A stretch of 49,544 nt of DNA from a virus, in the IMG/VR virus record IMGVR_UViG_3300032322_001560, positions 1 through 49,544 of that record. One strand, given 5' to 3'. The notes under the pieces are model-generated. The model was not told the origin of the DNA, did no database searches, and saw nothing but the letters and a program-made list of their open reading frames with translations. Made by a program: the position numbers and the translations under genes. This document shows positions 3,863 to 23,791 of the stretch, piece after piece; the stretch's first letter is position 1, and the number at the start of each line of letters is the position of its first letter.

Positions 3863-4149
3863 CTCGCCCGCAGGGTGACGAACTGCATGATGCCGTTGTG
3901 CAGGCGCTAAATGGCCCGCTGGTTGCCAAGCTGGCCCACCTGCTGCTGGACGAACTGCGCCAACAGTTGGGCGGCCGGCGTGTCTACATTGCTATCCGAG
4001 GTCAACGGGCGCAGGCCATCAACCCTGAGCGCGACGAGGCCGTTCTGCGCATGTTCAACGGGCGCAACCACCGCGAAGTGGTGAAGCATTTCAGCATCAG
4101 CCGGCGCACGCTGTACCGCATACTGGCAGGCAAGGCAACGCGCAAGTGA
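3841..4149 (+). CDS. Mor-family transcription activator-like protein
   Basis: A 102-residue protein overlapping the end of TerL by 22 bp. The C-terminal half (YIAIRGQRAQAI, then RMFNGRNHREVVKHFSISRR and TLYRIL) matches the Mor/C activator family, in which a FNGRN segment leads into a helix-turn-helix. Mor proteins activate middle or late promoters in Mu-like phages. The position between terminase and the head joiner is unusual for a regulator, and it may instead aid packaging or late control. There is no alternative internal ATG. Family assignment is fairly sure; the target is unknown. Confidence 0.72.
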   Translation: MVEQTPVARPQGDELHDAVVQALNGPLVAKLAHLLLDELRQQLGGRRVYIAIRGQRAQAINPERDEAVLRMFNGRNHREVVKHFSISRRTLYRILAGKATRK

Positions 4150-4156
4150 TGCCACG

Positions 4157-4182
4157 GTGCCACCCCTGCCTAGAAATGGCAC
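4157..4182 (+). repeat. 26-bp structured intergenic element, copy 1
   Basis: GTGCCA at 4157-4162, then CCCC, then TGCCTAGAAATGGCAC ending at 4182. Outer arms GTGCCA/TGGCAC and inner arms TGCC/GGCA compete for the same bases. Identical spacing and loop occur in copies at 6028 and 18697. It lies 23 bp before the gpW-like start codon. CACCC just inside could also pair with AGGGTG further right. Confidence 0.75.
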
Positions 4183-4205
4183 GCGCGCATGGTTAGGGTG
4201 TCAAC

Positions 4206-4466
4206 ATGACGACCCTCGCCACGGCGCAAGCCATGCTCGACGCCTACATTCAGGCGGAAACAGCCATCTTGCTTGGCAAGGAAACCCGCATCGGCGGGGT
4301 TGGCCTGGACCGCTGGCTTCGCATGGAAGACCTGGACATGGTTCAGGCTGGCCGCAAGGAGTGGGAGCGCCGGGTGCAAAGCCTGACCAGTTCCGCAGCC
4401 GGCGTGCCCCGTTTTGGTGGCGCCCGCTTCTCGCTGGCTGACGTGTCTAACCCGCAGGACTGGTAA
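4206..4466 (+). CDS. gpW/DUF6148-like head-tail joining protein
   Basis: An 86-residue protein with the pattern LDAYIQAETAILLGKE, then RMEDLDMVQAGRKEWERRV, typical of small gpW-like or DUF6148 connectors next to portals. Such proteins plug the portal vertex after packaging and form the base for tail attachment. Its TAA overlaps the portal ATG (TAATG), so the two are translationally coupled. It follows copy 1 of the 26-bp structured element. Confidence 0.75.
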   Translation: MTTLATAQAMLDAYIQAETAILLGKETRIGGVGLDRWLRMEDLDMVQAGRKEWERRVQSLTSSAAGVPRFGGARFSLADVSNPQDW

Positions 4467-6013
4467 TGACCGCCAACGCCCTAGACCGCGCCATTGCCTA
4501 CCTGTCGCCACGCGCGGCACTAAAACGCGCGCACGCCCGCACCGTGCTGGCGCGCATGCCTGGATACGATGCCGCAAAGCAGGGCCGCAATCGGCCAGTG
4601 ATCCGCGACGGGTTGAGCCCTGACCAGCTTGTAGAACGCAGCGCCACGCATCTTCGCGCACAAGCCCGTGACCTTGAGCGAAACCACGACATTGCGCGCG
4701 GCATCCTGCGCACGATGCTGAATAACATCGTCGGCGCCAACGGCATCGGCATCGAACCGCAGCCGCGTCGGGCTGACGGAACCATCCACGACGAATACGC
4801 GGCAGCGCTGCGCAAGGCTTACACCGACTGGGCGCGGAAGCCAGAGGTCACCAAACGCCACACCTGGACCAAGGTTCAGCGCCTGATGTGCAAGACTTGG
4901 CTACGCGACGGCGAAGCGTTTGCCCAAGAGTTGATCGGCCCCGTTCAGCTTTACGCCCACGGCAGCCGTATTCCGTTCAGCTTGGAAATGATTGAGCCCG
5001 ACCTGTGTCCGTTTGAGTACACAGACGGCGCGACCATCGTGAACGGCATTGAGCGCAACACCTGGGGCGAACATCGCCGGTTCTGGTTCTGGAAGACGTT
5101 CCCGGGCGACATCCGAGGTGCGATCTTCAGCCGTTCGGACATGAAATCTGTCCCGGCAGACCTTGTGCACCACATTGCCCTGCTTGACCGCATCGGGCAG
5201 ACGCGCGGCGTAACTGAGTTTGCCAGCATCATCACGCGGCTGGCCGACATCAAGAATTACGAAGAAAGCGAGCGCATCGCAGCCCAGATCGCTGCGGCGC
5301 TGACCGCGTATGTCAAGCGCGAGACGCCAGACGGATACGATGGTCCGCTGCTTGACCAAGACGGCAAGCCCATCCCGCGCACCTTGTCTTTGGCGCCCGG
5401 CACGGTCATTGACGACCTTGCACCGGGCGAAGACATTGGCATGATTAACAGCAACAGGCCGAATCCAAACCTGTTCACTTTCCGCCAGGGTCAACTGCGC
5501 GCAGCCGCTGCAGGATTCGGCGTCAGCTACAGCAGCATTGCCCGCGACTACTCAGGCACGTTCAGCAGCCAACGCCAGGAACTGGTAGAGCAGTGGGTCA
5601 ATTACGCCACACTGACCGACGAGTTTGTGGGCATGTTCGTTCAGCCGGCGTGGGAGTCTTTTGTCCGCGCGTGCAGCCTGTCCGGGCAGGTTCCGGTGCC
5701 TGCTGACGTGACGCCAGGAACGGAAGATGACTGCCTGTTTGTTGCCCAGCAGATGCCGTGGATTGACCCGCTGAAAGAGGCCAACGCTTGGCTTACTTTG
5801 GTCCGCGCTGGCTTTGCTTCCGAGGTGGAAGTCATCCGCAAACGTGGCGGCGTGCCGCGCGACGTGCTGGAGCAAATACGCAGCTTCCGCAAAGACAGCG
5901 CCGGCATGACCTTCACCAGCGACGGCGCGAACAGCTTGCAGGGCGGTGCAGCCAATGGCATGGACGCACAAAGCGACCCAGCTTCCGACTCGGTGACAGA
6001 CCCGGATGATTAG
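4466..6013 (+). CDS. Portal protein, lambda gpB family
   Basis: A 515-residue portal subunit (lambda gpB is 533). The N-terminus has RARTVLARMPGYDAAKQGR, then ERNHDIARGILRTMLNNIVG (residues about 72-91), the standard lambda-portal opening. LAPGTVIDDLAPGEDIGMIN (about 310) and a YSSIARDYSGTFSSQR segment (about 354) complete the pattern; the latter matches the YSSAR-type core motif of this family. It forms the DNA channel at one vertex of the head. It ends in TAG. Confidence 0.95.
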   Translation: MTANALDRAIAYLSPRAALKRAHARTVLARMPGYDAAKQGRNRPVIRDGLSPDQLVERSATHLRAQARDLERNHDIARGILRTMLNNIVGANGIGIEPQPRRADGTIHDEYAAALRKAYTDWARKPEVTKRHTWTKVQRLMCKTWLRDGEAFAQELIGPVQLYAHGSRIPFSLEMIEPDLCPFEYTDGATIVNGIERNTWGEHRRFWFWKTFPGDIRGAIFSRSDMKSVPADLVHHIALLDRIGQTRGVTEFASIITRLADIKNYEESERIAAQIAAALTAYVKRETPDGYDGPLLDQDGKPIPRTLSLAPGTVIDDLAPGEDIGMINSNRPNPNLFTFRQGQLRAAAAGFGVSYSSIARDYSGTFSSQRQELVEQWVNYATLTDEFVGMFVQPAWESFVRACSLSGQVPVPADVTPGTEDDCLFVAQQMPWIDPLKEANAWLTLVRAGFASEVEVIRKRGGVPRDVLEQIRSFRKDSAGMTFTSDGANSLQGGAANGMDAQSDPASDSVTDPDD

Positions 6014-6027
6014 CCCTAGCGCTTAAA

Positions 6028-6053
6028 GTGCCAGCCCTGCCTAGAAATGGCAC
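6028..6053 (+). repeat. 26-bp structured intergenic element, copy 2
   Basis: GTGCCA, GCCC, then TGCCTAGAAATGGCAC. Here GCCCTGCC (6034-6041) is also fully complementary to GGCAGGGC (6054-6061). This second stem interleaves with the GTGCCA/TGGCAC stem. The two cannot both form fully without loops, so they are either alternative hairpins or a compact pseudoknot. It lies 24 bp before the ATG of the protease-capsid gene. Confidence 0.78.
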
Positions 6054-6077
6054 GGCAGGGCAGCGAAAGTGCCGGGC

Positions 6078-8150
6078 ATGACGCAATCTGCCCCATGGTA
6101 CAGCATTCGCAAGTTGACGCCCACGGCGTCAGCAGCGCGCGGCGTGCAGTCGGCCGCTGAAATCTTCATTTACGGCGACATCGGCGAAAGCTGGTACGAA
6201 GAAACGACCAGCGCGGCCAGTTTCGTCCGCGAAATCAGCGCCCTAGACGTTGACGCGATCACTGTCCGGCTGAACAGCCTGGGCGGTTCGGTGCCTGATG
6301 GCATCAGCATTTTCAACGCCATGAAGCGCCACAAGGCGCAGATCACAACCGTCGTTGACGGCATGGCATTGAGCATCGCAAGCCTGATTTTCATGGGCGG
6401 CGACGTGCGCGAAATGGCCGAAAACTCGGTGTTGATGGTTCACGCCCCGTGGACCTACGCAGCCGGCAACGCCACGCAACTGCGCGAAATGGCAGACCGG
6501 CTTGATACCTGGGCAAGCGCCATGGCAACAAGTTACGCCACCGAAGGCGGCATGTCTGTTGCTGATGCGCTGGCCATGCTGACGGACGACAAAGACCATT
6601 ACTACAGCGCTGCCGAAGCGCTTGCGGCCGGCTTCTCAACCGCCACCGTTTCGGCCATGCCCATTGCGGCGTCTGCCCGTTTCGACCTGTCCCGCTTCAA
6701 AGACCTGCCGCCCGCTGCCCAAGCGTTTGCGGCGCCCCCTGTTCCCCTGAAGCCCGCACCCGCTGCGGCAACACCTGCGGCCCCTGCCGCGTCCACTTTG
6801 GAGATTCCACCCATGACGACCATCGTCACCACCCCGGACGCTGCGGCTATCACTGCCCAGGCGCTGGCTGCAGACAAGACCCGCCGCGAAGGCATTCGCG
6901 CCCACTTCAAGGCCTATGCCGCCCGCGACGGTGTTCCGGCCCTGTTGGAAGCCTGCGAAGGCGACCACAGCGTTACCCCGGAAGCCGCTGCTGCAAAGCT
7001 GCTGGCCCACCTGGGAAGCCAGTCTACCCCGATTCAGGGTGGCGTGGTGACCATTGAAGACGAAGGCGACAAGCGCCGTGACGCCATCGTCGCAAGCCTG
7101 ATGGCCCGTGCCGGTGTTGCTACTCCTGAGCAGCGCAAGCACATCAATGCCAACCCGTTCCGCGCCATGCGCTTGACGGAAATTGCCCGCGCCAGCCTGC
7201 AGCGTGCCGGTGTGCGCACGGAAGGCATGGACCAGATGGGCATGGTTGCTGCGGCCTTCACGCAATCGACCAGCGACTTCCCGGTGCTGCTTGAGAACAC
7301 CATGAATAAGACGCTGCAGGCGGCATATGCCGTGGCGCCTGATACCTGGTCGCGCTTCTGCGCACGCGGCACCGTGAGCGACTTCCGCGCAAGCAACCGC
7401 TACCGCGTGGGCTCACTTGGCAACCTGCAAGTGGTCAACGAGTTGGGCGAGTTCACCAACATGACAATCCCGGACGGCGAGAAGTCCAGCATTACCGCCA
7501 CCACGAAGGGCAACATCATCAACCTGTCGCGCCAAGCGGTGGTGAACGATGACCTAGGCGCGTTCGTCGGCTTGTCTGCATCGTTGGGCCGTGCTGCCCG
7601 CCGCACCATCGAGGCCGATGTCTACGCATCGCTGGCCTTGAACAGCGGCGCTGGCCCGACCCTGCTGGACGGCAACCCGCTGTTCCACAGCTCGCGCAGC
7701 AACATCACCACCAGCGCCGCACTGAGCGTTGAGGCCATTGAGCTAGATCGTGTGGCTATGGCTTCACAACGCGACGTGGGCGGAAACGACTACCTGGACT
7801 TGCGCCCGCAGGTGCTGCTGGTGCCGATCAGCCTGGGCGGTCGCGCCCGTGAAATCAACGGCGCTGAGTACAACGACGAAACCAGCAAGAACCAGCGCCG
7901 GCCCAACGTGGTGCGCGGCCTGTTCAGCGACATCGTGGACACCCCGCGCTTGTCTGGGAATCGCCGCTACATCTTTGCAGACCCGTCCGTCGCCCCGGCG
8001 ATGGAAGTCGCCTTCCTGGACGGCAACGACACGCCTTTCCTGGAAATGGAAAACGGCTTCACGGTCGATGGCGCTCGCTGGAAAGTCCGCCTTGACTACG
8101 GCGTGGCCGGCATCGACGGGCGCGGCGCAATCACCAACGCTGGCGGCTAA
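6078..8150 (+). CDS. ClpP-like prohead protease fused to major capsid protein
   Basis: A 690-residue fusion; a GTG at 6069 would add three residues. Residues 60-180 are a ClpP/S14-type serine protease: LNSLGGSVPDG, nucleophile S99 in GMALSIAS, and H122 in LMVHAPW. A proline/alanine linker (about 220-245) is followed by a helical scaffold-like part, then a HK97-type capsid domain from about residue 385 (FPVLLENTMNKTL, RNITTSAALS-like loop, LLVPISLGGRAREI). Such protease/capsid fusions are known in phages, and self-cleavage should release scaffold and capsid. An in-frame ATG at 6813, 9 bp after GGAG, could make the scaffold-capsid part (445 residues) directly. Confidence 0.93.
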   Translation: MTQSAPWYSIRKLTPTASAARGVQSAAEIFIYGDIGESWYEETTSAASFVREISALDVDAITVRLNSLGGSVPDGISIFNAMKRHKAQITTVVDGMALSIASLIFMGGDVREMAENSVLMVHAPWTYAAGNATQLREMADRLDTWASAMATSYATEGGMSVADALAMLTDDKDHYYSAAEALAAGFSTATVSAMPIAASARFDLSRFKDLPPAAQAFAAPPVPLKPAPAAATPAAPAASTLEIPPMTTIVTTPDAAAITAQALAADKTRREGIRAHFKAYAARDGVPALLEACEGDHSVTPEAAAAKLLAHLGSQSTPIQGGVVTIEDEGDKRRDAIVASLMARAGVATPEQRKHINANPFRAMRLTEIARASLQRAGVRTEGMDQMGMVAAAFTQSTSDFPVLLENTMNKTLQAAYAVAPDTWSRFCARGTVSDFRASNRYRVGSLGNLQVVNELGEFTNMTIPDGEKSSITATTKGNIINLSRQAVVNDDLGAFVGLSASLGRAARRTIEADVYASLALNSGAGPTLLDGNPLFHSSRSNITTSAALSVEAIELDRVAMASQRDVGGNDYLDLRPQVLLVPISLGGRAREINGAEYNDETSKNQRRPNVVRGLFSDIVDTPRLSGNRRYIFADPSVAPAMEVAFLDGNDTPFLEMENGFTVDGARWKVRLDYGVAGIDGRGAITNAGG

Positions 8151-8173
8151 GCCACACACCTGGAGAACTGAAC

Positions 8174-8530
8174 ATGGCAGCAAATTACGTACAGCCTGGC
8201 GAAACCCTGACCTTGATCGCGCCGTCCGGTGGCGTGGTGGCCGGTCTTGGGTACGTCATCGGCTCGCTTTTTGTGGTGGCGCTCACCACCGCAGCCGCTG
8301 GCGCAACCTTCACCGGCCGCACAGAAGGCGTGTTCCGCATGACCAAAGCCACGCACGCCAGCACCAAGGCCTTCACGGCAGGCGAAGCGATCTTCTGGGA
8401 CAACACCACCAAGCAGTGGGACAAGACCGCAACGGGCTTTTTCCAGATCGGTGTTGCAACCGAGGCCGCCGCGTCAACGTCCAACGTGGTGCTGGTCGAA
8501 ATCAACGTGCGCGCCCTGGCCGCAGTCTGA
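8174..8530 (+). CDS. Capsid decoration protein, DUF2190 family
   Basis: A 118-residue protein: YVQPGETLTLIAPSGGVVAG, then GSLFVVAL, then GEAIFWDNTTKQW and FFQIGVATEAAA. This beta-rich pattern is that of DUF2190 proteins, which follow capsid genes and are thought to decorate or stabilise the head, like lambda gpD. It sits 23 bp after the capsid gene with a GGAG ribosome site. Confidence 0.82.
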   Translation: MAANYVQPGETLTLIAPSGGVVAGLGYVIGSLFVVALTTAAAGATFTGRTEGVFRMTKATHASTKAFTAGEAIFWDNTTKQWDKTATGFFQIGVATEAAASTSNVVLVEINVRALAAV

Positions 8531-8537
8531 GCCTGAC

Positions 8538-8831
8538 ATGGCCTGGGCCGCGCTGCAGACTCGCGTGAACACCGCTGTTTTGGAGGTGTTTGGAGAAACT
8601 GTGCGCGTTGCCGGGGTTGATGTGCAGGGCGACTTTCACGAGCCTGACGAAGCAATCGACACCGGGGACGGCTTGGCCGTCTGCCGCGTCCCTCGCGTTG
8701 TGATGCAAAGCGCATTGCTTCCTGCCGCCCCTGTTGGCAAGCCAGTGTTTGCGCGGTCGCGCGCCTTCACGATTGCCGATGCCCGCCACGATGGGCGCGG
8801 TATGGCCATCCTTGAACTGGAGGCGGCGTGA
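8538..8831 (+). CDS. Head-tail attachment protein, gpFII-like
   Basis: A 97-residue protein: LQTRVNTAVLEVFGETVRVAG, VDVQGDFHEPDEAID, DGLAVCRVPRVVM and a DARHDGRGMAILEL ending. The layout matches lambda gpFII (117), which caps the head and receives the tail. The ATG at 8538 is chosen over an upstream in-frame codon at 8451 because the latter lies deep inside the decoration gene. Its TGA overlaps the GTG start of the next gene. Confidence 0.68.
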   Translation: MAWAALQTRVNTAVLEVFGETVRVAGVDVQGDFHEPDEAIDTGDGLAVCRVPRVVMQSALLPAAPVGKPVFARSRAFTIADARHDGRGMAILELEAA

Positions 8832-9268
8832 ATTCGCTGCACTACGGTTTCCGCGACTTGTTTGCATCGCGCATCGGCGCGGCACCTGCATTGGTCGATG
8901 GCGGCGTGCTGGCCGGCAAACGTAGGCCCATGCCTGAAGCTGTCAACGCGCAGATTTTTGTTGACCTTGACGACAGCCCAGCGCTGCCGGTGACCGTCTC
9001 AAACATCGTTGAGTGGAACACCCGCATTCGCGTGCGCGTCCTGGCCCGCAGTGCTGGTGGAGTAGCAAGCGACACGCTGGCAGATCGTCACATGACATCT
9101 GCTTACGGGCGCGTGATGGCCGATCCGTACTTCAGCGGCGCTGCATTGCAGACAGACCCCGCAGGCATCGCCTGGAACACGCAAGACGAAGCCGACACCA
9201 CGGTTTCGGAATGCACCGCAGTTTTTACCGTCCGTCACCGCACGCCACGCGCGTCTGTGGCTGCTTGA
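8828..9268 (+). CDS. Tail terminator/minor tail protein, gpU-like
   Basis: A 146-residue protein starting at GTG in a GTGA overlap. ALPVTVSNIVEWNTRIRVRVLAR, ADRHMTSAYGRVMADPYFSG and a final SECTAVFTVRHRT strand resemble gpU-type tail terminators. These cap the tail tube and join it to the head. Position between the gpFII-like and tail-tube genes agrees with this role. Confidence 0.66.
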   Translation: MNSLHYGFRDLFASRIGAAPALVDGGVLAGKRRPMPEAVNAQIFVDLDDSPALPVTVSNIVEWNTRIRVRVLARSAGGVASDTLADRHMTSAYGRVMADPYFSGAALQTDPAGIAWNTQDEADTTVSECTAVFTVRHRTPRASVAA

Positions 9269-9288
9269 ACTTTTTATAGGAGCCAACC

Positions 9289-9750
9289 ATGGCCGTTCGT
9301 ACATCAGCCGGCAGCCTTCTCAAGATCAGCGCTGGCGTGCCTGCCACCTTCAACACTGCTGGCTATTCAGCACTGACCTACACAACCATCGGCGAAATCA
9401 CGGACTTTGGTGAGTTTGGGCGGGAATACACGCTGGTCACGCACAACCCGGTTGCTAACCGTGGAACCGTCAAGTTCAAAGGCAGCTTCAACGAGGGCAC
9501 CATGACCCTCCAGCTTGGCTTGGACACAGACGACGCCGGACAGATTCTTGCCAAGTCTGCTGTCAACAGCGACAACAACTACGCCTTTGAGATGACCACT
9601 CAGAACGGCGACAAGTACTACTTCCAAGCTCAGGTAATGAACTTCAAGGTGGGCGTCGGTGACGTGAACAAGATCACCAGCGCCACCATCATGGTCGAGA
9701 TCACCACCTCGAACACTGGTGTCGGCATCGTTGAGTCGTTGGCCGCCTGA
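9289..9750 (+). CDS. Major tail tube protein, gpV-like
   Basis: A 153-residue beta-rich protein with IGEITDFGEFGREYTLVTH, GTVKFKGSFNEGTMTLQLGLD and DKYYFQAQVMNFKVGVGDVN followed by a final ITSATIMVEITT strand. This is the tail-tube fold of gpV-type proteins, which stack as hexamers around the tape measure. A strong TAGGAG site lies 7 bp before the ATG, as expected for a highly expressed protein. Confidence 0.85.
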   Translation: MAVRTSAGSLLKISAGVPATFNTAGYSALTYTTIGEITDFGEFGREYTLVTHNPVANRGTVKFKGSFNEGTMTLQLGLDTDDAGQILAKSAVNSDNNYAFEMTTQNGDKYYFQAQVMNFKVGVGDVNKITSATIMVEITTSNTGVGIVESLAA

Positions 9751-9762
9751 TAGGGGAACAAA

Positions 9763-10269
9763 ATGCCTGCAACCGCTACCCTATCCGCCAGTATCGTCGG
9801 GCTGCTTTCTGGCACGGTTGACATCGGTGCTGTCGAGCATTCGCTGTCATACGGGCCAACCATTCCATTCAGCGACGGCACAGGCGCCAACCAGATCAAC
9901 CGCATCTGGGCCGACACGCGCACACTGGCCGCCAGCGCTACCGAAGACCTGGACCTGGCCGGCTCGCTGGTTGACGCCATTGGCCAGACGGTCACCTTTG
10001 CCAGGGTAAAGGCCATCCTGATTCGCCCGTCTGCCGCGAACACAAACAACGTCATTGTGGGTGGCGCTTCTGCCAACCAGTTTGTGACTTGGGTTGGCGG
10101 TGCTACTCACACCGTCACCGTGCGCCCTGGCGGCCTGTTTGCCATCGGCGCACCGGATGCCACCGCTTACGCAGTGACCGCTGGCACTGGCGACTTGCTG
10201 CGCATCGCAAACAGCAGCAGCGGCACGTCTGTCACTTACGACATTGTGATTCTCGGCGCCACAGCCTGA
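9763..10269 (+). CDS. Beta-rich virion protein of unknown role
   Basis: A 168-residue protein, all-beta in appearance: SANTNNVIVGGA, VTVRPGGLFAIGAPDATAY and SSGTSVTYDIVILGA. This C-terminal layout is common in small phage proteins next to tail-tube or capsid genes, and a surface or tail-tube decoration role is plausible. No catalytic motif is visible. It begins 12 bp after the tail tube gene with an AGGGGA ribosome site. Confidence 0.6.
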   Translation: MPATATLSASIVGLLSGTVDIGAVEHSLSYGPTIPFSDGTGANQINRIWADTRTLAASATEDLDLAGSLVDAIGQTVTFARVKAILIRPSAANTNNVIVGGASANQFVTWVGGATHTVTVRPGGLFAIGAPDATAYAVTAGTGDLLRIANSSSGTSVTYDIVILGATA

Positions 10270-10290
10270 CGCCACAACCCGCACCGACCT

Positions 10291-10324
10291 GGCGGGTGTC
10301 TCCACGTTGCGGTGGAGCGCCCGC
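10291..10324 (+). other. Intergenic two-part hairpin before the tail chaperone gene
   Basis: GCGGG (10292-10296) pairs with CCCGC (10320-10324), and CTCCAC (10300-10305) pairs with GTGGAG (10312-10317) around a 6-base loop. No T-run follows, so it is not a standard terminator. It may slow transcription or protect mRNA ends between the abundant tail-tube message and the scarce chaperone message. The rest of the 100-bp gap shows nothing else. Confidence 0.5.
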
Positions 10325-10369
10325 TAGGCACGGGCAAATAGCTTTACCCCACCGCAACGGAGAAGCACC

Positions 10370-10786
10370 TTGACTGAAGAAACCAAGCCCTTTGACCTGT
10401 CGGCGTATGAAGCGGCAGAAGTCGGCATCCTGTCTGTGGAAACGCCATCAGGTGAACCCATGCTGCACGCTGGCCAGCCTGTCCGCTTTCATCTGTACGG
10501 CCCTGGCAGTTCGCAGGCCGTAAGCATCACCGCCAAGCTGGACGCAGCAGCCCAGGCCCGCACTTTTGCGGCCCTGCGCGGCAAAGCCAACAAAGGCGCA
10601 GCCGACGAACAGAAGGCCGACCAAGTGACCAAGCTGGTGGCCTGCACCCGCGAAGTCGAAAACTTCCCGGTCCCTGGCGGCGCACGCGCCATCTACGAAA
10701 ACCCGCGCCTGGGCTACATCACGAACCAGGTGCAGCGTTTCCTGGATGACTGGGCAAATTTTCCGCCGCAGTCAGCGCAGAGCTGA
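10370..10786 (+). CDS. Tail assembly chaperone, gpG-like
   Basis: A 138-residue protein starting at TTG after CGGAG. The mid-part (VSITAKLDAAAQARTFAAL, KVTKLVACTREVENF-like) and the end (YENPRLGYITNQVQRFLDD) fit gpG-type chaperones, which wrap the tape measure during tail assembly. Lambda gpG is 140 residues. A slippery AAATTTT at 10756-10762 near the end allows a -1 shift into the T frame. Confidence 0.82.
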   Translation: MTEETKPFDLSAYEAAEVGILSVETPSGEPMLHAGQPVRFHLYGPGSSQAVSITAKLDAAAQARTFAALRGKANKGAADEQKADQVTKLVACTREVENFPVPGGARAIYENPRLGYITNQVQRFLDDWANFPPQSAQS

Positions 10787-11235
10787 CGCTTTACGCGCGG
10801 CAACTGGCATGGCTCAATGCAACACCCGAAGCCCCAGCAGGCAGCAGGCAGCAAGGCAGGCGCGCAGAGCGCCAGCCCACACGCCTACGCAGGCTCACAG
10901 AAGCCGGCGCTGACCCACCGTTGCCGCCAGTGCACAACGCTGGCCGGCTGCTTTCCATGTTGCTTGAGCTTGGTGTCGCCGGGTCCGGTGGCATGGGTGC
11001 CGCGCCCGTCTCCTGGGCCGAGATTGCTGAATGGCAACGGCTCACTGCCCATCCTTTGCAGCCCTGGGAAGCCCGCGCGATCAGGCTTGCCAGCGTTGAA
11101 TACGTCGGGCAGCTATCCAAGTCAACCGATCCCGGATGTCCGCCGCCATGGGCTGCAGAGCCAACCGAGGATGACCGCGAGCGTATTGCCAGCGGGCTGC
11201 GGGCCATGCTTTCCGCAAGCGCTAAACGAGGCTGA
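10370..11235 (+). CDS. Tail assembly chaperone gpGT-like -1 frameshift fusion
   Basis: The zero frame reads to AAATTTT (A AAT TTT, 10756-10762), a canonical -1 slippery heptamer. After slippage the ribosome reads TCC GCC GCA from 10762 in a frame open from 10750 to the TGA at 11233. The product would be about 288 residues, against 279 for lambda gpGT. The T part includes LTLYARQLAWLN, HNAGRLLSMLLELG and EAGADPPLPP. As in lambda, a minority GT product would link gpG to the tail tube protein. The downstream tape-measure ATG follows 3 bp after the T stop. Confidence 0.85.
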
Positions 11236-11238
11236 GGC

Positions 11239-14200
11239 ATGAGCACAAACATCGGCGTTACCCTTACCGCTGACGATCAGCAGTTGCTTGCGGTGCTGCG
11301 CAGCGTTGACGGGAAACTCGACGCGCTGGCGGCGTCAGCAAACGGCAGTTTCAACAGCGCTGGTACGGCTGCAGCGCGTGCGGCTACGCAAGTCAAAGCG
11401 CTTGAAGCGCAAACCGGCATGACTGCCAAGGGCATGAATGCTGCGCTGCGTACAGTGCCCGCGCAGTTCACCGACATTGTGACCAGCCTGCAAGCTGGCC
11501 AGCCCGCGCTGCAGGTTCTGTTGCAGCAGGGTGGACAACTGAAAGACACGTTCGGCGGCATTGTCCCGGCTTTCAAAGCCTTGGGCGGGTACGTGCTGGG
11601 CTTGCTGAATCCGTTCACCATCCTGGCGGGTCTAACCGCTGTGCTGGGCGGCTCGTTTCTGGCCGGTCGATCAGAGATGGAGAAAACCGCACGGCAGTTG
11701 ATCCTGTCCGGTGAAGCCGCTTTTGTTACCGCTGGTCAGATGCAATCCCTGGCGGCAGAGATAGACAACATTGGCGGCGGCACGCAGGGCAAAGCTGTTG
11801 AGGTACTGAATCAACTTGCTGCTGCAGGCATCAAGGGCACTACGGCGCTGCGCGACATGACCATGACGGCCATTGAGCTTGAGCGCGCGGGCGGGCCTGC
11901 GGTTGAGGAAACCGTCAAGGCAATGGCATTGCTTGGCAAAGACCCGGTGCAGGCCAGCATCGAACTGAACAAGACGACGAATTTCCTCACCCTGTCGCTG
12001 TTCAATCAGATCAAGGCATTGCAAGATCAGGGCCGAGCTACAGAAGCCGCAGCGCTTGCGCAGCGCGCGTACTCCGAAGAAATGAACCGCCGCATTCCTG
12101 CGCTGGAAGGCCATCTTGGATTGCTGGAGCGCGGATGGCGCAGCGTCACGACCGTTGCAAAAGAGACATGGGACGCGATGCTAGGCGTCGGGCGGCCCGA
12201 TACCACGCTGACAAACCTGGAACTGGCACAGCGCAAGCTGCAGGCGTCACAACAGGGCATCTACAGCCGAGACAAGGTGCCTGAGCGCACGCAAGAGGTC
12301 CGCGACCTTTCACGCCGCGCCGTTGTGGAAATGGAAGTGGCCGCCGCCCGTGGCCTGCAAGCCGAGCAGACACAGGCCGCCATCAAGGCAACCGGCGAAC
12401 TGAGCAAGTTCAACGAAAAGGCACTCACTGACCAGCAGAAGCTGACCCGCGAACTGACCGAGTACCGCCGCAATGTTGAGGCTGTCCGGGCCGGTGGCGG
12501 GACCGTTGACCCTGACCAAATCAAGCGGGTTGAGGCTGCAATCACGGAGAGCTACACCAAGAAGACCGCTGCGGCCAAAACCAACAACCAGGAAATCGAG
12601 CGCCAGATTGCGCTGATGCTGAAGCTGTCAGGCTTCACGACCAACTACGCGCAGGATGCGGCTGACATTGATGCCGCCGCAAAAAGCGGTTTCATCTCCC
12701 GCGAACGCGCCATAGAGCTTCAGCGCGAACTGCTGGAAATGCAGCCGCGTATGCGCGAGGAAAGCGAGCGCGACCTGAAGATGGCGACCGAGCGTGCTGC
12801 TGCGCGCAACAAAGAAAACCAGCAGATCGAGGACTACATTGAAAAGCAGCGCAGCGCAGAAAAGGCCGCTGCTGCATCGCTTGCGGCGCGAATCTCTGGG
12901 CTTGAGGACGAGGAACGCGCGGCGCAGTTGTCGGCAGCGCAGAACATTAGCCTTGCCCTGGCAATTGAAATGGTCGCCATCGCCAGGGCAGAAGAAAACC
13001 TTGAGAAGTTCCTGCCAGGGTCAGAGCCTTACATCGCCGTTGAGCGCGAGATTGAGGCCCGCAAGCGGCTGGCATCCATTGTCAGCAGCGCCGACGTGCG
13101 CGAGGCAAACAAGAAGGCAGCGGAAGACAGCGCCCGTGAGTGGGAGCGCGTCACAGACCAGATCGGCCAGACCCTGACTGATGCCATCTTCAACGGCGGC
13201 AAGTCGGCAAGCCAGTTGCTGAAAGACCTGTTCCGCACCTTGGTCCTGCGGCCCACTGTCCAGCCGATCCTGAACAACGCCGTCAAGACGATCATGGATA
13301 CGGTCCAGAAATGGATGGCGCAGGCATTCCAGTCCAGCGGCAACATGGCCGGCACGGGCGGCAACAGCATGGGTGGTTTGCTGCAGTTGTTTGGTGGCGG
13401 TGACAGTGGTTCTGGAATGCTGGGGACGATACTGAAGCAGTACGGCAGCAGTGCAAAAGCATTCCTTGGCATCGGACAAGGAACAGCGACAGGCGCCACC
13501 AATGCCGCTTTGGCAGAGTCTGCTGTAGGTACAGCCGGATACGGCGCCAGCAGCGCCAGCGCATCGGGCATGAGCGTTGCCGGGTACGCTGCAATCGCAG
13601 CAGCGGCTTACATCGGCGCCACGGCAATTGCACAACTCATCGGCCGTGGTGCGCCACAGGTTGAGGGCCGCAACATTGTCGGCACTGTCGGCGGTGGCGG
13701 GTTTGATGGCACCTTCAATGAGCGTGTGCGCGAAAAAGGCGGTTGGCTGCGCAGCGACAAGGTTTACACCATCACGAGCGGTGTATCTGACCAAGTTGTC
13801 GCAGCCATCAACGACATGGCCGGCAAGGTCCGTGAGACTGCCAGCGGCTACGCTGAGGCGCTTGGGTTGCCTGCTGACGCAATCAAAGCCTTTTCAAAAG
13901 CCATCGACGTTGATGTCACCTTCAGCACCCCAGAGGAATCCGCAAAACGGGTTGAGGAAGCCCTGCGCGGTTACGCCGATGGTGTGTTCGCCACCTTTGA
14001 CAGCGCCGTCGAAAAGTTCCGCCGCCTGGGTGAGACAAGCGAACAAGTATTGTCCCGCCTGGCCACGCTGCAGAACTTCAGTACCGACCTAAACGCCCTT
14101 GGCGGCGTGTTCAGCCGCGTGGCCGGGCTAAGCGTGTCGGCACGCGAGGGTTTCATCGCCATGGCAGGCGGCATGGATGCGCTGCGCTCGCAGGCAAAGA

Positions 14201-14664
14201 GCTTTGTAGAAAACTACTACAGCCGCGACGAAGTGGCCGGCGTCAAGGCCCGCGAAATCAAGGACGCGCTGGCAGCGGTTGGGATCACAGGCGACATCAG
14301 CACAAAAGACCAGTTCCGCGCGCTTGTCGAAAACAGCGGCAACACGCCCGAGCAGTTGGCTACGCTTCTGCAGGCGCAAGGCAGCTTTGCAGACGTGGCC
14401 GCGTACATTGAAGAAGTGGGCGGGTCGCTTGCATCGCTGTCAGCGCTGGCACCACAAATGGGCGTCATCGGGGGGCTGTTCACACCCGCAGAACAAGCCC
14501 AAGTCGCAGCAACAAACGCAGTCCAAACCGCTGTCGAGCAGGTGCGTGACGCCATCGTAGAGCTTGGCAATTCGATGACCACCGGAACACCAAGCTACGG
14601 CTCTGCCGAGTATTGGGAAACGACCGTCGATGATGGCAGCCGCACATCAACAGGTGGCGACTGA
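11239..14664 (+). CDS. Tail tape measure protein
   Basis: A 1141-residue protein whose length sets tail length (lambda gpH is 853, so a longer tail is expected). The N-terminal part has TAAARAATQVKALEAQTGM, then AQFTDIVTSLQAGQPALQVL and a hydrophobic stretch (about 113-142), the usual lambda-type tape-measure opening. The middle is long charged coiled coil (about 340-640). A glycine/alanine-rich hydrophobic region follows (about 690-800). It likely exits with the DNA to help cross the inner membrane. Confidence 0.93.
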   Translation: MSTNIGVTLTADDQQLLAVLRSVDGKLDALAASANGSFNSAGTAAARAATQVKALEAQTGMTAKGMNAALRTVPAQFTDIVTSLQAGQPALQVLLQQGGQLKDTFGGIVPAFKALGGYVLGLLNPFTILAGLTAVLGGSFLAGRSEMEKTARQLILSGEAAFVTAGQMQSLAAEIDNIGGGTQGKAVEVLNQLAAAGIKGTTALRDMTMTAIELERAGGPAVEETVKAMALLGKDPVQASIELNKTTNFLTLSLFNQIKALQDQGRATEAAALAQRAYSEEMNRRIPALEGHLGLLERGWRSVTTVAKETWDAMLGVGRPDTTLTNLELAQRKLQASQQGIYSRDKVPERTQEVRDLSRRAVVEMEVAAARGLQAEQTQAAIKATGELSKFNEKALTDQQKLTRELTEYRRNVEAVRAGGGTVDPDQIKRVEAAITESYTKKTAAAKTNNQEIERQIALMLKLSGFTTNYAQDAADIDAAAKSGFISRERAIELQRELLEMQPRMREESERDLKMATERAAARNKENQQIEDYIEKQRSAEKAAAASLAARISGLEDEERAAQLSAAQNISLALAIEMVAIARAEENLEKFLPGSEPYIAVEREIEARKRLASIVSSADVREANKKAAEDSAREWERVTDQIGQTLTDAIFNGGKSASQLLKDLFRTLVLRPTVQPILNNAVKTIMDTVQKWMAQAFQSSGNMAGTGGNSMGGLLQLFGGGDSGSGMLGTILKQYGSSAKAFLGIGQGTATGATNAALAESAVGTAGYGASSASASGMSVAGYAAIAAAAYIGATAIAQLIGRGAPQVEGRNIVGTVGGGGFDGTFNERVREKGGWLRSDKVYTITSGVSDQVVAAINDMAGKVRETASGYAEALGLPADAIKAFSKAIDVDVTFSTPEESAKRVEEALRGYADGVFATFDSAVEKFRRLGETSEQVLSRLATLQNFSTDLNALGGVFSRVAGLSVSAREGFIAMAGGMDALRSQAKSFVENYYSRDEVAGVKAREIKDALAAVGITGDISTKDQFRALVENSGNTPEQLATLLQAQGSFADVAAYIEEVGGSLASLSALAPQMGVIGGLFTPAEQAQVAATNAVQTAVEQVRDAIVELGNSMTTGTPSYGSAEYWETTVDDGSRTSTGGD

Positions 14665-15179
14665 TGCGAACCCTATCCACGGCACACAGTAACGCACTCA
14701 CCGGACCCGTACAGCGCCCGGCGTACTTGATTCAACTCAACTACTCCACTATTCAGCGATGGTCTTCGCACGACACGGTTAGCTGGAACAGCCAGACGTG
14801 GACAAAGTTTGACATCACGGTCGAGGGATTGCAGGTGCAGGCCCTGTCTGTGCGCGGAACCTTGGTTGCAGGCAATGCCGACGACGTGGCCGGTGCGTTT
14901 GTGATTGCACAGGGCATCCAAGACATTCCAATCACGATCTACGGGTATGACGCTGCGGCCACATCATCCGGCGATGTTGTGCTGCTGGCGTCAGCAGTTG
15001 GCGGCACCGCAGAAGTCGGCTTGTCCGAGGTTCGTGTGTCTCTGCGCCATCGGTCTGAGTTTCAGCAGTCCCCACGCACCTACGTCAACGCGGCAAACGG
15101 GTTCACCGTCTTGCAGTCCCCTGGCACTGTGATCCGTGTGAACGGCCAGGACATTAAGCTAGCACGGAGGGACAGGTAA
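14664..15179 (+). CDS. Minor tail/tail-tip assembly protein
   Basis: A 171-residue beta-rich protein. RPAYLIQLNYSTIQRWSSHD, then WNSQTWTKFDITVEGLQVQ and a repeat of strands ending VSLRHRSEFQQSPRTYV. It sits where lambda has M/L-type tail-tip proteins and overlaps both neighbours by one base (ATGA-like junctions). A distal-tail or hub adaptor role is inferred from position and from the dual-strand pattern seen in such proteins. No zinc-cluster cysteines are present. Confidence 0.6.
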   Translation: MRTLSTAHSNALTGPVQRPAYLIQLNYSTIQRWSSHDTVSWNSQTWTKFDITVEGLQVQALSVRGTLVAGNADDVAGAFVIAQGIQDIPITIYGYDAAATSSGDVVLLASAVGGTAEVGLSEVRVSLRHRSEFQQSPRTYVNAANGFTVLQSPGTVIRVNGQDIKLARRDR

Positions 15180-18100
15180 TGGCTATCCGTGCCCTTCCGT
15201 GGGCGACCCTCACCATCCCTGCAGCCAAGCGCCTAAACGGCGTGGCCAGCGATGCCGACAAGCGCCAGATCAGCGTGGCCGGCGCCAACAGTGTTGTGCC
15301 GCTAACCTACGGGCAGGACCGAATCGGCGCCTTGATTTTGAACGTCGGTGCGCCTGAGCCTGGCGACACTACCACGCTCCTGATTCAAGTGCTGTGGGGC
15401 TTTGCGGGCTCTGCGTTGTCTGATGTCAAGTTGAACGGCCAAGCCTTGCCTGGTGGCGCGACGGTCACGACCTACCTCGGCACGCAGACGAGCGCAGACT
15501 CCACGGTTGTCGCTGCTTTTGCCGAATACGGCATCACGTACACCGACACCCTGGAAGGCTATGCCTACAGCGTGATAAGCGTGCCGCAGTCTGCTGTGAG
15601 CACCGAAATTCAAGTGACCGGGTTGTTTTCTGGCCGCAAGCTGTACGACCCACGAAAAGACAGCACCGCAGGCGGCAGCGGATCACACCGGCTGGCCACG
15701 CCAAGCACCTGGGAATACAGCGACAACCCGGCCCTGGCTCTGGGTGACTTTCTGCGCTCTACGGTCTACGGCGCGAGCGAAACCGTCAACTGGGCAACGG
15801 TGGCCACAACAGCCGATGCCAACGATGCATTGATCGGAAGCCCAAGCGAAAAGCGCCGCACCGTAGGCGTCACGTTTTCGTCGGTGTCTGGCGTTACGGA
15901 CATTGCTGAAGCCCTGCGCGCCTATGCCGGGTGTTTTCTGCTGCCAGGCCCCAGCGGAATCAAGCTGGTGCCAGATCAGGATGACAGCTATGTGGCCACG
16001 TATGCCCACGCTGACGGCACGATTGCAAGCATTGCGCCGCTGACCCTGCGCGACCTTGGGAACAGTCCAACGGTGGTCGAAGTCATCTACACCGACACCA
16101 CCGAAACGCCCTGGCGCGATGCGTCGGCCTATGCTGAACTGGCTGGCGTTGGGTCAACGAAGCCATACCGGCTGTCGCAGGTGCGAATGCCTGGGGTGAA
16201 GCGATTCAGCCAAGCCAAGCGGGAAGCCATCGAGCGCCTGAACAAGCTCACGCTCCAGGACGTGTCCACGCAGATTGAGGTTTTCGACATCGGCGTGCGC
16301 CATGAAGTCGCGGACATCATCCGGGTTACGCACCCCATCGGCCTGAGCCTGAACAAGTTTCGCATCACAGAGATTCAGAACCCTGCCGCTGGCCGGTGGC
16401 TGTTGTCGTTGATTGAGCACGACGCGGCAAGCTACAGCGACAGCGTGACCACGGCGCCGACGTACAACGGATTCCCGCCAGACATCAGCGGGCCGGTTGC
16501 CCCGGTTGAAGGACTGTCCAGTCTGGTGCTGACGATCTACGCGCAGTACCCGACTGTTCCGGTTTGCCCCACGGGTGGCACCTACACCTTCACGGGCGAT
16601 GTCTTTGTGCCGCCAAGCCCATCGGCAGGATCAACGGTTGCATGGACGGCAGCAAGCGGCACAACTCTGACCTTGACGGACAGCGGCAGAACGGCAGAGG
16701 TCGCATCCGGCACAGGTGTCCGCACTTTTGGCGGCAGTCCAAGCTATGCCACCGGGGCCAGCGACAAACGTTATTTTGAAATCGTCTACATCAACTCTGG
16801 ATCTTTTGGGGATGGCGTCCGCGACGAGTACGGTCTTGCGACGGTAGGCAACATTCCTGGCAACGAACCATCAAATTCAGGCATCGGCTACCGGCGCGCA
16901 GGCAATGTGCGAGTAAACACGTCGGTGGTTGTTTCTGGTGCCGCGCTGGCTGCAAACGATGTCATCGGGTTTGCGTTTGACCTATCCAGCCGCAAAGTCT
17001 GGGTGTCGCTCAATGGGGTCTGGCTAGCATCAGGCGACCCAGCGGCAGGAACTGGGCAACAAGGCACGCTTAGCGCTGGCACGTATCAGCCGCAAGTGTC
17101 TTCAGAATCTGGCAGCGCGTGCAAAGTAACGCTCAACGCCAAGACATCGCAACTGACATACGCGCCGCCGACCGGGTTTGTCGCTTGGGGCTTAGATGAT
17201 GGCCCTACGTGGTCAAGAGAGCAGCCGGCATCCAGCACGACGCCCACATGGAAAACCGACGTGCTTGTCGCCACGCGCACGCCCGGCACTGCAATACCAA
17301 TCGGCACCAGCCCTAATGCAGACTGGACATGCCCGCCAGTCAGGAACGCGCAGATTGCACCCACTACCGCCACCGTGACCCTGGTTCGTCGCACGACGAC
17401 ATCAACGCCACCAGCGTTGCCATCGGCTGATGTGACCTACACCTTTGCCACCGGGGTAGCCACGGGCCTGACGGAATCGTGGGTGCAGACCCTGCCGACA
17501 AGCGGAGGCTCTTACAGGTGGGCGACTACCGCCACTGCATCGTCAACTACGGCCACTGACTTGATTGCACCGTCTGAATGGAACGGGCCGCGCATCACAT
17601 CGCAGGACGGCGAAAACGCCGACACCTACGAGGTGTCATTTAGCCCAGCGACGATCATTGCAGAGGCGCATGTGGGCGGGTTCGTGCCGTCGTTCGCTGG
17701 CCTGACCACGACAGCTACGCTCAAGCGCAATGGGACCACGGAAACGGGCGACTGGACCGTGACCGTGCTGTCGCATCCGCACGCTGCGGCTTCGGTGGCC
17801 GGCGCGCTTATCTCGCTTACGAGCATGGCGGCCTTTATCAGCGCCGTAACGCTGACGGTCGAGTTCACGCGCTCAGGCTTCCCGAAGTTGATCCGCAGCC
17901 TGGGCGTGTCCAAAGTGCAGAACTTGGGCGTCAACGGCATCAACCCGCTTGTGCTGACATCCCCTATCGGCGCATCGTCCTACACGACATCCGCCAGGTA
18001 CATCGGTTGGAAGTTCCAACCAAATGGGCTGTTATACGGCGGCATCAAAACAGGGGCCGGTGCGTGGTCTTGGGGGGCGATACACGACTACTGGGCGCTG

Positions 18101-18355
18101 CCTGTTACCAGCGGGTTTGGTGATGACTACTCGCTGCTCATTACTGAGGAATACAACTACAGCACGGTCAACGAGCTAATAGGCATTGACCTTGCGGACC
18201 CTGTGCCGTTGTCTAGCGATGTGATCTTTGGTTGGCGGCTGGCTGAAGGGCCATCTGTCTTGCGGGTGGGCTTCCGAATTTTCATCATTGATTATTTAGG
18301 CGTGTCTGTTGACATAGGGGTAATGAAGATGAGTTGGACCATGGACGGGCCGTGA
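15179..18355 (+). CDS. Central tail tip (gpJ-like) protein with inserted SPRY domain
   Basis: A 1058-residue protein. The first 430 residues (NSVVPLTYGQDRIGALILN, LLIQVLWGFAGSALSDVKLN, and a baseplate-hub part with DIAEALRAYAGCFLLPG and VKRFSQAKREAIERLN) are gpJ-like tail tip. Residues about 515-670 read KRYFEIVYIN, GIGYRRAGNVRVN, NDVIGFAFDLSSRKVWVSLN and GVWLASGDPAAGTG, a clear SPRY/B30.2-type beta sandwich that probably contacts a surface ligand. The rest is fibronectin-like beta repeats, with the last 120 residues in lower-GC DNA. It likely decides host recognition. Confidence 0.85.
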   Translation: MAIRALPWATLTIPAAKRLNGVASDADKRQISVAGANSVVPLTYGQDRIGALILNVGAPEPGDTTTLLIQVLWGFAGSALSDVKLNGQALPGGATVTTYLGTQTSADSTVVAAFAEYGITYTDTLEGYAYSVISVPQSAVSTEIQVTGLFSGRKLYDPRKDSTAGGSGSHRLATPSTWEYSDNPALALGDFLRSTVYGASETVNWATVATTADANDALIGSPSEKRRTVGVTFSSVSGVTDIAEALRAYAGCFLLPGPSGIKLVPDQDDSYVATYAHADGTIASIAPLTLRDLGNSPTVVEVIYTDTTETPWRDASAYAELAGVGSTKPYRLSQVRMPGVKRFSQAKREAIERLNKLTLQDVSTQIEVFDIGVRHEVADIIRVTHPIGLSLNKFRITEIQNPAAGRWLLSLIEHDAASYSDSVTTAPTYNGFPPDISGPVAPVEGLSSLVLTIYAQYPTVPVCPTGGTYTFTGDVFVPPSPSAGSTVAWTAASGTTLTLTDSGRTAEVASGTGVRTFGGSPSYATGASDKRYFEIVYINSGSFGDGVRDEYGLATVGNIPGNEPSNSGIGYRRAGNVRVNTSVVVSGAALAANDVIGFAFDLSSRKVWVSLNGVWLASGDPAAGTGQQGTLSAGTYQPQVSSESGSACKVTLNAKTSQLTYAPPTGFVAWGLDDGPTWSREQPASSTTPTWKTDVLVATRTPGTAIPIGTSPNADWTCPPVRNAQIAPTTATVTLVRRTTTSTPPALPSADVTYTFATGVATGLTESWVQTLPTSGGSYRWATTATASSTTATDLIAPSEWNGPRITSQDGENADTYEVSFSPATIIAEAHVGGFVPSFAGLTTTATLKRNGTTETGDWTVTVLSHPHAAASVAGALISLTSMAAFISAVTLTVEFTRSGFPKLIRSLGVSKVQNLGVNGINPLVLTSPIGASSYTTSARYIGWKFQPNGLLYGGIKTGAGAWSWGAIHDYWALPVTSGFGDDYSLLITEEYNYSTVNELIGIDLADPVPLSSDVIFGWRLAEGPSVLRVGFRIFIIDYLGVSVDIGVMKMSWTMDGP

Positions 18356-18356
18356 C

Positions 18357-18680
18357 ATGGCTGCATATCCCACACTGATGACACTTCGTACCAGCAACAC
18401 CGAGAGGGACGCTGGAATCCAGACCGGGCGCGCAACAAACGGCGCGCTGCGGGTGCGCAGCCTTTACCCGTCAGACAAGGCAGACTTCACCATCGTTCAC
18501 TGGCTAAGCCGGACCGAAAAAAACGCGCTGGACACTTTCTACGCTACGAATCGCCTTTTGGACGTGACCTACACGGATCCGGGCGACGGCGCAACTTACA
18601 CCGTGCGCTTCGCTGCCGCCCCGCTGCCGGTGGACATGACGCCATGGTGGGAAGTGCGCGTTAGGCTGCGCGAGATCTGA
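18357..18680 (+). CDS. Conserved small tail protein
   Basis: A 107-residue protein: YPTLMTLRTSNTERDAGIQT, ATNGALRVRSLYPSDKADFT, SRTEKNALDTFYATNRLLDV and WWEVRVRLREI. I recognise this layout from phage tail proteins near the tail tip, whose biochemical role is not settled. It begins 1 bp after the tail-tip stop and ends just before copy 3 of the 26-bp element. Confidence 0.65.
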   Translation: MAAYPTLMTLRTSNTERDAGIQTGRATNGALRVRSLYPSDKADFTIVHWLSRTEKNALDTFYATNRLLDVTYTDPGDGATYTVRFAAAPLPVDMTPWWEVRVRLREI

Positions 18681-18696
18681 TTATGTTCCGTGCGTT

Positions 18697-18722
18697 GTGC
18701 CGCTGTTGCCTAGAAATGGCAC
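18697..18722 (+). repeat. 26-bp structured intergenic element, copy 3
   Basis: GTGCCG, CTGT, then TGCCTAGAAATGGCAC. The outer stem now ends in a G-T pair (G-U in RNA), a change that keeps the RNA stem but not a perfect DNA palindrome. It starts the only sizeable gap of the tail module, 84 bp before the next gene. No other gene is visible in that gap (18681-18805). Confidence 0.72.
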
Positions 18723-18805
18723 GGCAGGCCCCGCAGACTGCGTGAATTAACCATCGGCGGGTTGCTGCGCCATCGGCGCTCCTTGCCGCCTGAAAGGCAC
18801 GCAGC

Positions 18806-19090
18806 ATGTCAGTCATCACCAACAGCAACCAGACGCTTGCCATTGGCACGCCAGGCAACTGGTGGACCCCGACAACCACAAGCATCACCGTTGACGTTGA
18901 CAACGCGGCAATGGTTACTTTGGAAACCCGGCGCGGCAGCGGCGATGCAGCACCAAAGCCGGTGTTCCTCGGGGATCAGAAGACAACCATCCTCAGAGGC
19001 CCGTGCTCGCTGTTGTTGCAGGTGGTGGTCGGGCGTGACTACAGGTTTAATGCCGCAAATGGCGCCCCTTCTGTCGCTGCGTTTGATTGA
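18806..19090 (+). CDS. Small beta-rich tail-fibre-associated protein
   Basis: A 94-residue protein (SVITNSNQTLAIGTPGNWWT, SITVDVDNAAMVTLETRRG, ILRGPCSLLLQVVVGRDYRF) with short beta strands and no catalytic motif. It opens the fibre block after copy 3 of the structured element. Probably a virion surface or fibre-linking protein; function unknown. Confidence 0.6.
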   Translation: MSVITNSNQTLAIGTPGNWWTPTTTSITVDVDNAAMVTLETRRGSGDAAPKPVFLGDQKTTILRGPCSLLLQVVVGRDYRFNAANGAPSVAAFD

Positions 19091-23011: not shown

Positions 23012-23791
23012 GTGGCCAGCGACCAAGCCGTCCGCGACCTTGAGCCGCTTGTGCGCCGAGTCGCGGGCTCTGCGCACCGGGGCATGCCGGCAAGCGCCGA
23101 CATCGAGGATGTACGGCAGGTTGCGCGGATCGCCGGCTGGGAAGCGGCGCAAAAGTTCGACGGGCGCGGTACGTTGGATGGATTCGCAGCGCAGTGCATG
23201 CGTTCCCGCATCATCGACTGGCAGCGGACGCAGACGCCGGGCGGGCGCAACAGCCCCGGCTACCAGTTTGCCGACGTTGACGATGATGCACTTGACGACG
23301 TTGCAGCCGAGACAGACCACGCACGCGACATTGAGCGCGCCCAGCAATTCGATGCGCGCATTAGACAGATACCCGTCAAGCATCGCGCCCTTGCAAAACG
23401 TATCCTGGCGGGTGACACCATGACAGCCATCGCGGCCAACATGGGCGTGAGCGAATCGCGGGTCTCCCAGAAACTCGCCGAGACAGTCGCGCACTTGCAA
23501 GTGGTGCCGCCGCGCGTGTCGGGCCACTTTGACCCTGCCGCTGTCATCATCCGCATGGGCTCGATGCCCAGGCCAAAAGTCCGAGTCAACAAGTACCGGC
23601 AGTTGCTTGAGCGCATGCCTGCAACTGGGTCCGTGGTGCTGCACCCAGCGGCGGCATCTGCGCTGTGCAGCGAATTCAAACGGGCGAGCATCCCATACAT
23701 GCGCCACACCCTGCCGTCTGGGCAGGTAGAAGTCTGGCGTGAGCCATCACCCGAGCAACGCGCAGCCGCAAGGCAAAGGACGGCCAAGTGA
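23012..23791 (+). CDS. Phage-encoded sigma-70-family factor
   Basis: A 259-residue protein starting at GTG. Residues 29-72 (ADIEDVRQVARIAGWEAAQK, FDGRGTLDGFAAQCMRSRI and IDW) match sigma region 2 of FliA/SigF-type factors. Residues 131-162 (LAGDTMTAIAANMGVSESRV) are region 4 with its helix-turn-helix. The C-terminal 90 residues add an unassigned basic domain. It should direct host RNA polymerase to phage promoters, probably late ones. Its position between fibre and lysis genes suggests a link to lysis or late timing. Region 3 is very short or absent. Confidence 0.8.
   Translation: MASDQAVRDLEPLVRRVAGSAHRGMPASADIEDVRQVARIAGWEAAQKFDGRGTLDGFAAQCMRSRIIDWQRTQTPGGRNSPGYQFADVDDDALDDVAAETDHARDIERAQQFDARIRQIPVKHRALAKRILAGDTMTAIAANMGVSESRVSQKLAETVAHLQVVPPRVSGHFDPAAVIIRMGSMPRPKVRVNKYRQLLERMPATGSVVLHPAAASALCSEFKRASIPYMRHTLPSGQVEVWREPSPEQRAAARQRTAK

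Follow-up and report, generated by a model that had tools for sequence, protein, structure and literature searches.

What is the function of a short palindromic sequence that stands upstream of virion genes at three places in one phage genome? The window in which we addressed this question is an entire IMG/VR virus record, a metagenomic contig of 49.5 kb (49,544 nucleotides). Family searches identified terS, terL, Mor/C, gpW-like, portal, protease/major capsid, decoration, tail, and tape-measure genes. The record also has an N6/N4 DNA methylase gene (42235-43599, + strand) that adjoins a YbcO-like nuclease gene.

A first-pass annotation of the sequence had reported a repeated element at positions 4157, 6028, and 18697, and exact pattern matching confirmed this observation. 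The pattern GTGCC-N5-TGCCTAGAAATGGCAC occurs exactly three times (4157-4182, 6028-6053, and 18697-18722), always on the + strand, whereas shuffled sequences give a chance expectation of 0.01. No fourth copy is present in the window, even when up to three mismatches are allowed. The variable segment comprises five bases (ACCCC, AGCCC, and GCTGT in copies 1, 2, and 3) rather than the four originally described, and a pattern with N4 matches nothing in the window. Copy 1 lies 8 bp 3′ of a Mor-like gene and ends 23 bp before the gpW ATG at 4206, and copy 2 lies between the portal and capsid genes and ends 24 bp before the protease/major capsid ATG at 6078, just as the annotation had stated for two copies. 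Copy 3 occupies the gap 3′ of a tail gene that ends at 18680, is located 83 bp before an ATG at 18806, and precedes the tail-side block. The relevant features are as follows.

3841-4149, + strand: Mor/C-family late activator gene (102 aa, C-terminal HTH; Pfam Mor, PHROG 532), at the end of the packaging-gene block
4157-4182, + strand: putative operator copy 1, palindrome GTGCCA..TGGCAC with its center at about −36.5 (exact pattern; equivalents in relatives at the same place)
4194-4199, + strand: −10-like hexamer TAGGGT of predicted promoter 1, 11 nt after the operator (fixed NANNNT in relatives)
4206-4466, + strand: gpW-like head-tail adaptor gene (PHROG 118), ATG at hexamer offset 6, predicted leaderless
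4466-6013, + strand: portal gene (PHROG 21), second gene of predicted promoter 1
6028-6053, + strand: putative operator copy 2 (exact pattern)
6065-6070, + strand: −10-like hexamer GAAAGT of predicted promoter 2 (fixed NANNNT in relatives)
6078-8150, + strand: head protease/major capsid gene (PHROG 133), ATG at hexamer offset 7, predicted leaderless
18697-18722, + strand: putative operator copy 3 (exact pattern)
18734-18739, + strand: −10-like hexamer CAGACT of predicted promoter 3 (hexamer spacing)
18806-19090, + strand: first ATG open reading frame 3′ of predicted promoter 3, with a predicted leader of about 60 nt and an SD-like AAGG

The longest open reading frame for the capsid protein begins with a GTG at 6069. 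Because this codon overlaps the −10-like hexamer, the true start is probably the ATG at 6078.

Relatives were collected by profile-based scans of IMG/VR and of bacterial genomes with the capsid protein, which yielded approximately 200 loci. They belong to phages or prophages whose hosts are Burkholderiales or other Proteobacteria, and many have an equivalent hyphenated palindrome of 25-28 bp before the same genes (gpW and capsid). Prophages that carry the element occur, for example, in Variovorax sp. UMC13 (L239), Malikia granosa (L214), and Cupriavidus necator A5-1 (L206). The arms vary among phages and match within one phage. For example, they read GTCTCATT..AATGAGAC in locus L128, GTCCGGTTT..AAACCGGAC in L133, GTCCCGTTT..AAACGGGAC in L233, TTCCAC..GTGGAA in L217, and GTGCAG..CTGCAC in the capsid copy of L125, and the copies in L295 have common arms despite their differing loops. 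When two arm types were searched over whole records, each record bearing that type contained two copies, and therefore the third copy in the window appears to be an addition. Conservation in relatives, with arms that keep pairing, was the test that the first-pass annotation had set for its element, and the element passed. Passing does not imply an RNA structure, because a dimeric DNA operator covaries in the same manner as an RNA stem. Moreover, because the elements were found through arm complementarity, covariation of the arms cannot by itself serve as independent evidence.

The full element pattern has no exact copy in IMG/VR outside the window, and exact 14-mer matches there occur without the arms and look like chance. 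We detected no DNA similarity between the window and phages, no tblastn hits to phages at 1e-5 with the window’s Mor protein alone, and no matches in a single-protein pattern scan using Mor. The window also contains a full-length match (67 bits) to the Rfam Betaproteobacteria-1 RNA (RF02932) at 39670-39791 on the + strand, which suggests that the record carries a phage-borne copy of this RNA. This match and the hosts of the relatives suggest a betaproteobacterial host.

A second conserved feature lies downstream of the palindrome. Among 54 palindromes from relatives that were chosen by arm score only, blind to the hexamer, 42 have the sequence NANNNT at +24 to +26 from the palindrome center (10, 24, and 8 by offset), against a background of approximately 2 of 54 at each other offset. 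Likewise, NANNNT occurs exactly 11 nt past the right end of 43 of the 110 perfect 8-bp-arm palindromes (25-28 nt) upstream of gpW or capsid genes, compared with 30 of 619 such palindromes at other places in the loci (p = 2e-20). The palindromes without it include some that resemble terminators and cases in which the same element was read in another register. Some palindromes in the upstream windows of relatives, such as that of L298, resemble ordinary terminators, have no hexamer, and were set aside. If the hexamer is placed at −12 to −7, the palindrome extends from about −50 to −24 and is centered at about −37.

The hexamer is conserved only at A2 and T6, which are the two −10 bases that sigma-70 flips out, and in most copies it is far from TATAAT. 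The most common versions are TAGCCT, CAAACT, GAAACT, and CACACT. In relatives, gpW-side hexamers tend to TAGCCT and capsid-side hexamers to CAAACT, GAAACT, or CACACT, as if the gpW and capsid promoters were tuned differently. No sigma-70 consensus promoter was found in the region around copies 1 and 2 (3600-6600). Thus, the fixed NANNNT provides a −10 that is recognizable without a −35 consensus, as is characteristic of Mor/C promoters. The sequence TGGCAC resembles part of a sigma-54 promoter, and we rejected this candidate: inspection by eye shows no TTGC at −12 with the proper spacing, and GGCAC varies in relatives. Locus L136 carries a different perfect palindrome with 11-bp arms (CACTGACACGC..GCGTGTCAGTG) before gpW and capsid (3641-3669 and 9932-9960), in which the hexamer is slightly further away (center +26) and the ATG is 8 nt on. 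Perhaps another activator acts there at the same promoter positions.

The first-pass annotation had listed the Mor-like protein among candidate binders, and it is very probably the factor that binds the element, the arms of which track its recognition helix. The window protein scores 37.2 bits against Pfam Mor (cutoff 24.9) and falls within PHROG 532, late transcriptional activator. A profile built from 44 Mor proteins of relatives matches phage Mu Mor (1rr7, 4.8e-11) and Mu C (9l0x, 2.6e-10). A structure model of the window protein shows an HTH, modeled with high confidence, at residues 77-101, and its best fold matches are 9l0x, 1rr7, and 9l0y, with weak whole-chain scores (E values of 0.1-0.7). 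Nearly all loci that carry an element, and in which the region 3′ of the terminase gene is covered, have a Mor-family gene there. At our score threshold, the element was found in 42 of 72 loci with Mor and in 2 of 41 without (p = 5e-9). The other 30 of the 72 have no element above this threshold, which misses weaker elements; the window’s own element scores 6 and would fail.

Further evidence comes from comparing the recognition helix, S-R-x3-x4-L-Y-x7-I, with the arms in the same phage. We retained 52 distinct helix-arm pairs of 67, with filters that demanded a T at arm base 2, presence of the Tyr, and at least 5 of 6 outer pairs. An Arg at x3 corresponds to G at arm base 3 (GTG) in 10 of 10 cases, versus 0 of 42 others. 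At x7, Glu or Asp corresponds to CCGG (arm bases 5-6 = GG; 9/9 versus 0/43), Arg or Lys to C at arm base 5 (26/28 versus 0/24), and Gln, Ser, or Asn to AG (12/13 versus 1/39). Independent pairs on the capsid-protein tree agree with these four assignments in 7 of 7, 6 of 6, about 7 of 7, and about 8 of 8 instances, respectively. A further association, between Ala or Gly at x3 and T at arm base 4, was significant by simple counts, but the tree does not bear it out (3 of 8 pairs agree), and we do not claim it. The stated filters aside, this evidence is independent of how the palindromes were found. The window helix, SRRTLYRIL, predicts GTG and C5, and the window arm GTGCC agrees. The fixed distance between palindrome and −10, together with arm bases that follow the helix, argues for a dyad operator that serves an activator.

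The positions of start codons provide information about where transcripts might begin. For 104 elements, we recorded the first ATG that opens a frame of at least 60 codons. This ATG lies 6, 7, 8, or 9 nt past the hexamer in 10, 22, 4, and 1 cases, respectively (37 of 104, a close class defined by ATG starts only). It never lies at 0-5 or 10-11 nt, and all others are at 12 nt or more. A Shine-Dalgarno (SD) match of at least 5 nt precedes none of the 37 close ATGs and 19 of the 67 ATGs with longer leaders; for matches of at least 4 nt, the counts are 5 of 37 and 39 of 67. Such a distribution is consistent with transcripts that either lack a leader or have one with room for an SD. We infer leaderless transcripts for the close class because the ATG is 6-9 nt past the hexamer and no SD match reaches 5 nt. 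The gpW gene (offset 6) and the capsid gene (offset 7, ATG 6078) of the window fall in this class, and copy 3 has a longer leader with an SD-like AAGG. A 4-nt SD-like GGTG that overlaps the −10 at the gpW start counts against the leaderless reading. The mRNA of capsid genes appears to begin at the start codon, with no ordinary ribosome-binding leader, in the window phage and in many relatives.

From the computed conservation, −10 spacing, helix-arm code, ATG spacing, and lack of SD sequences, we infer protein binding, activation, start sites, and leaderless translation. Specifically, we consider it very likely that the three copies are operators of Mor/C-activated late promoters, centered near −37, that drive leaderless gpW and capsid mRNAs. 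Each copy would act as the DNA operator for a late promoter that requires an activator. The protein encoded at 3841-4149 would bind both arms (GTGCC[A/G]...TGGCAC) in the form of a dimer or a larger oligomer. Bound at about −49 to −24, the activator would take the place of a −35 element and bring RNA polymerase to a weak −10 (TAGGGT, GAAAGT, or CAGACT) located 11 bp downstream. Transcription would start approximately 7-8 nt past the −10. For gpW and capsid, this predicted start is the A of the start codon and would give leaderless mRNAs, and the tail block (copy 3) would have an ordinary leader.

The first-pass annotation had proposed alternative hairpins or a compact pseudoknot, which could make the element a translational operator or an RNA-processing site in late mRNA. 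The arms do pair, single elements fold better than shuffled sequences (z −1.1 to −2.4 in the window, and −4.2 to −4.5 for two elements from relatives), and copies 2 and 3 would be included in read-through transcripts from copy 1. However, an RNA acting in the sense orientation would favor G·T/T·G among arm mismatches, and these number 18 versus 25 C·A/A·C. The A-T to G-T change noted in copy 3 is real, but there is no wobble excess to support the hint of RNA pairing that was drawn from it. The inner complementarity (TGCC with GGCA) can likewise be read in the sequence, yet it arises by chance from the loop: L128 shares the TGCCTAGAAATG loop (TGCC) but has other arms and no inner hairpin, and copy 2 in its context forms another hairpin. 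Furthermore, the element has no Rfam match and lies upstream of the predicted transcription start, and an RNA function would leave unexplained both the fixed −10 spacing and arms that track the helix of a DNA-binding protein. We regard this explanation as very improbable.

Equally little credence can be given to direct recognition by the phage’s own sigma factor, although the annotation was correct in suggesting a promoter. The window does encode a Sigma70_r2 protein (23012-23791, + strand), and the distance from the element to the late genes would suit a promoter. This gene is ECF-like and is located upstream of a lysozyme gene. However, Sigma70_r2 is found in 0 of 13 records of relatives and Mor in all 13 (records that may be incomplete), so that a phage sigma factor does not seem to be needed; a long palindrome would also be unusual as a sigma −35 site, and the arms follow the Mor helix. 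The Mor-like protein might instead use this operator for repression, or transcripts might start elsewhere, so that the capsid mRNAs would carry leaders. Activation, like the start sites, is deduced and the hexamer is weak, which leaves some room for this reading, but we consider it unlikely. The clustering of ATGs at 6-9 nt without an SD match of at least 5 nt, and the frequent presence of an SD in longer leaders, fit a start 7-8 nt past the hexamer. To our knowledge, the characterized Mor/C proteins are activators.

It is reasonably probable that a large group of Proteobacteria phages with lambda-type heads transcribes its virion genes from Mor/C promoters with a geometry that is new (a two-turn dyad of 27 bp near −37), and that these phages share a readable helix code and leaderless connector and capsid mRNAs. 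This would constitute a late-gene switch for widespread, little-studied phages and prophages of Delftia, Cupriavidus, Variovorax, Duganella, Marinobacter, and others. The approximately 50 activator-operator pairs form a natural data set for reading and testing the DNA code of the Mor/C family. Leaderless initiation in Proteobacteria is usually held to be minor and weak. Our analysis predicts that major capsid genes are translated from leaderless mRNAs in these bacteria and, if this is true, synthesis of the most abundant protein of the virion does not use Shine-Dalgarno initiation. A literature search, with most subscription journals outside its scope, found no description of these promoters or of leaderless late phage capsid genes.

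Lambda cI expressed from PRM is a leaderless phage mRNA with its AUG at +1 and no SD. The transcripts predicted here would share these features, but their genes encode virion components that are needed abundantly (capsid and gpW), and such transcripts would occur in many phages. The closest known systems are those of Mu, for which we took promoter geometry from PMC4390567 and PMC4287176. The binding site of Mor is a 16-bp dyad with 5-bp arms that spans −51 to −36 (center −43.5) and replaces the −35 for sigma-70 RNA polymerase (PMC4390567, PMC4287176), and C acts likewise at four late promoters, Plys, PI, PP, and Pmom (PMC4287176).

Both Mu Pm with Mor (PDB 1rr7 and 9l0y) and the promoters predicted here involve a Pfam Mor protein, a dyad operator in place of a −35, and a recognizable −10. 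The dyad is different: it is 25-28 bp long with arms of up to 8-9 bp, extends from about −50 to −24, and has its center, at about −37, 25 bp upstream of the hexamer start rather than at the Mu position. By chain counts, the structures of RNA polymerase with C or Mor (9l0x and 9l0y) each contain four activator chains, which might suit a longer site. In contrast to Mu, the present phages have a lambda-like head module, with the activator gene after the terminase gene. As with the Mu C promoters (9l0x and 9vw8), several late promoters of one phage would be switched on by one Mor/C-family protein acting at a common dyad. However, Mu has its late activator C separate from Mor, whereas here a single Mor/C gene is part of the packaging block and immediately precedes its first putative target, and leaderless late mRNAs are predicted here, with none reported in the literature consulted. 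Thus, the system seems to work like the Mu Mor/C promoters, but its operator length, operator position, and predicted leaderless products would make it a variant rather than a Mu-type system.
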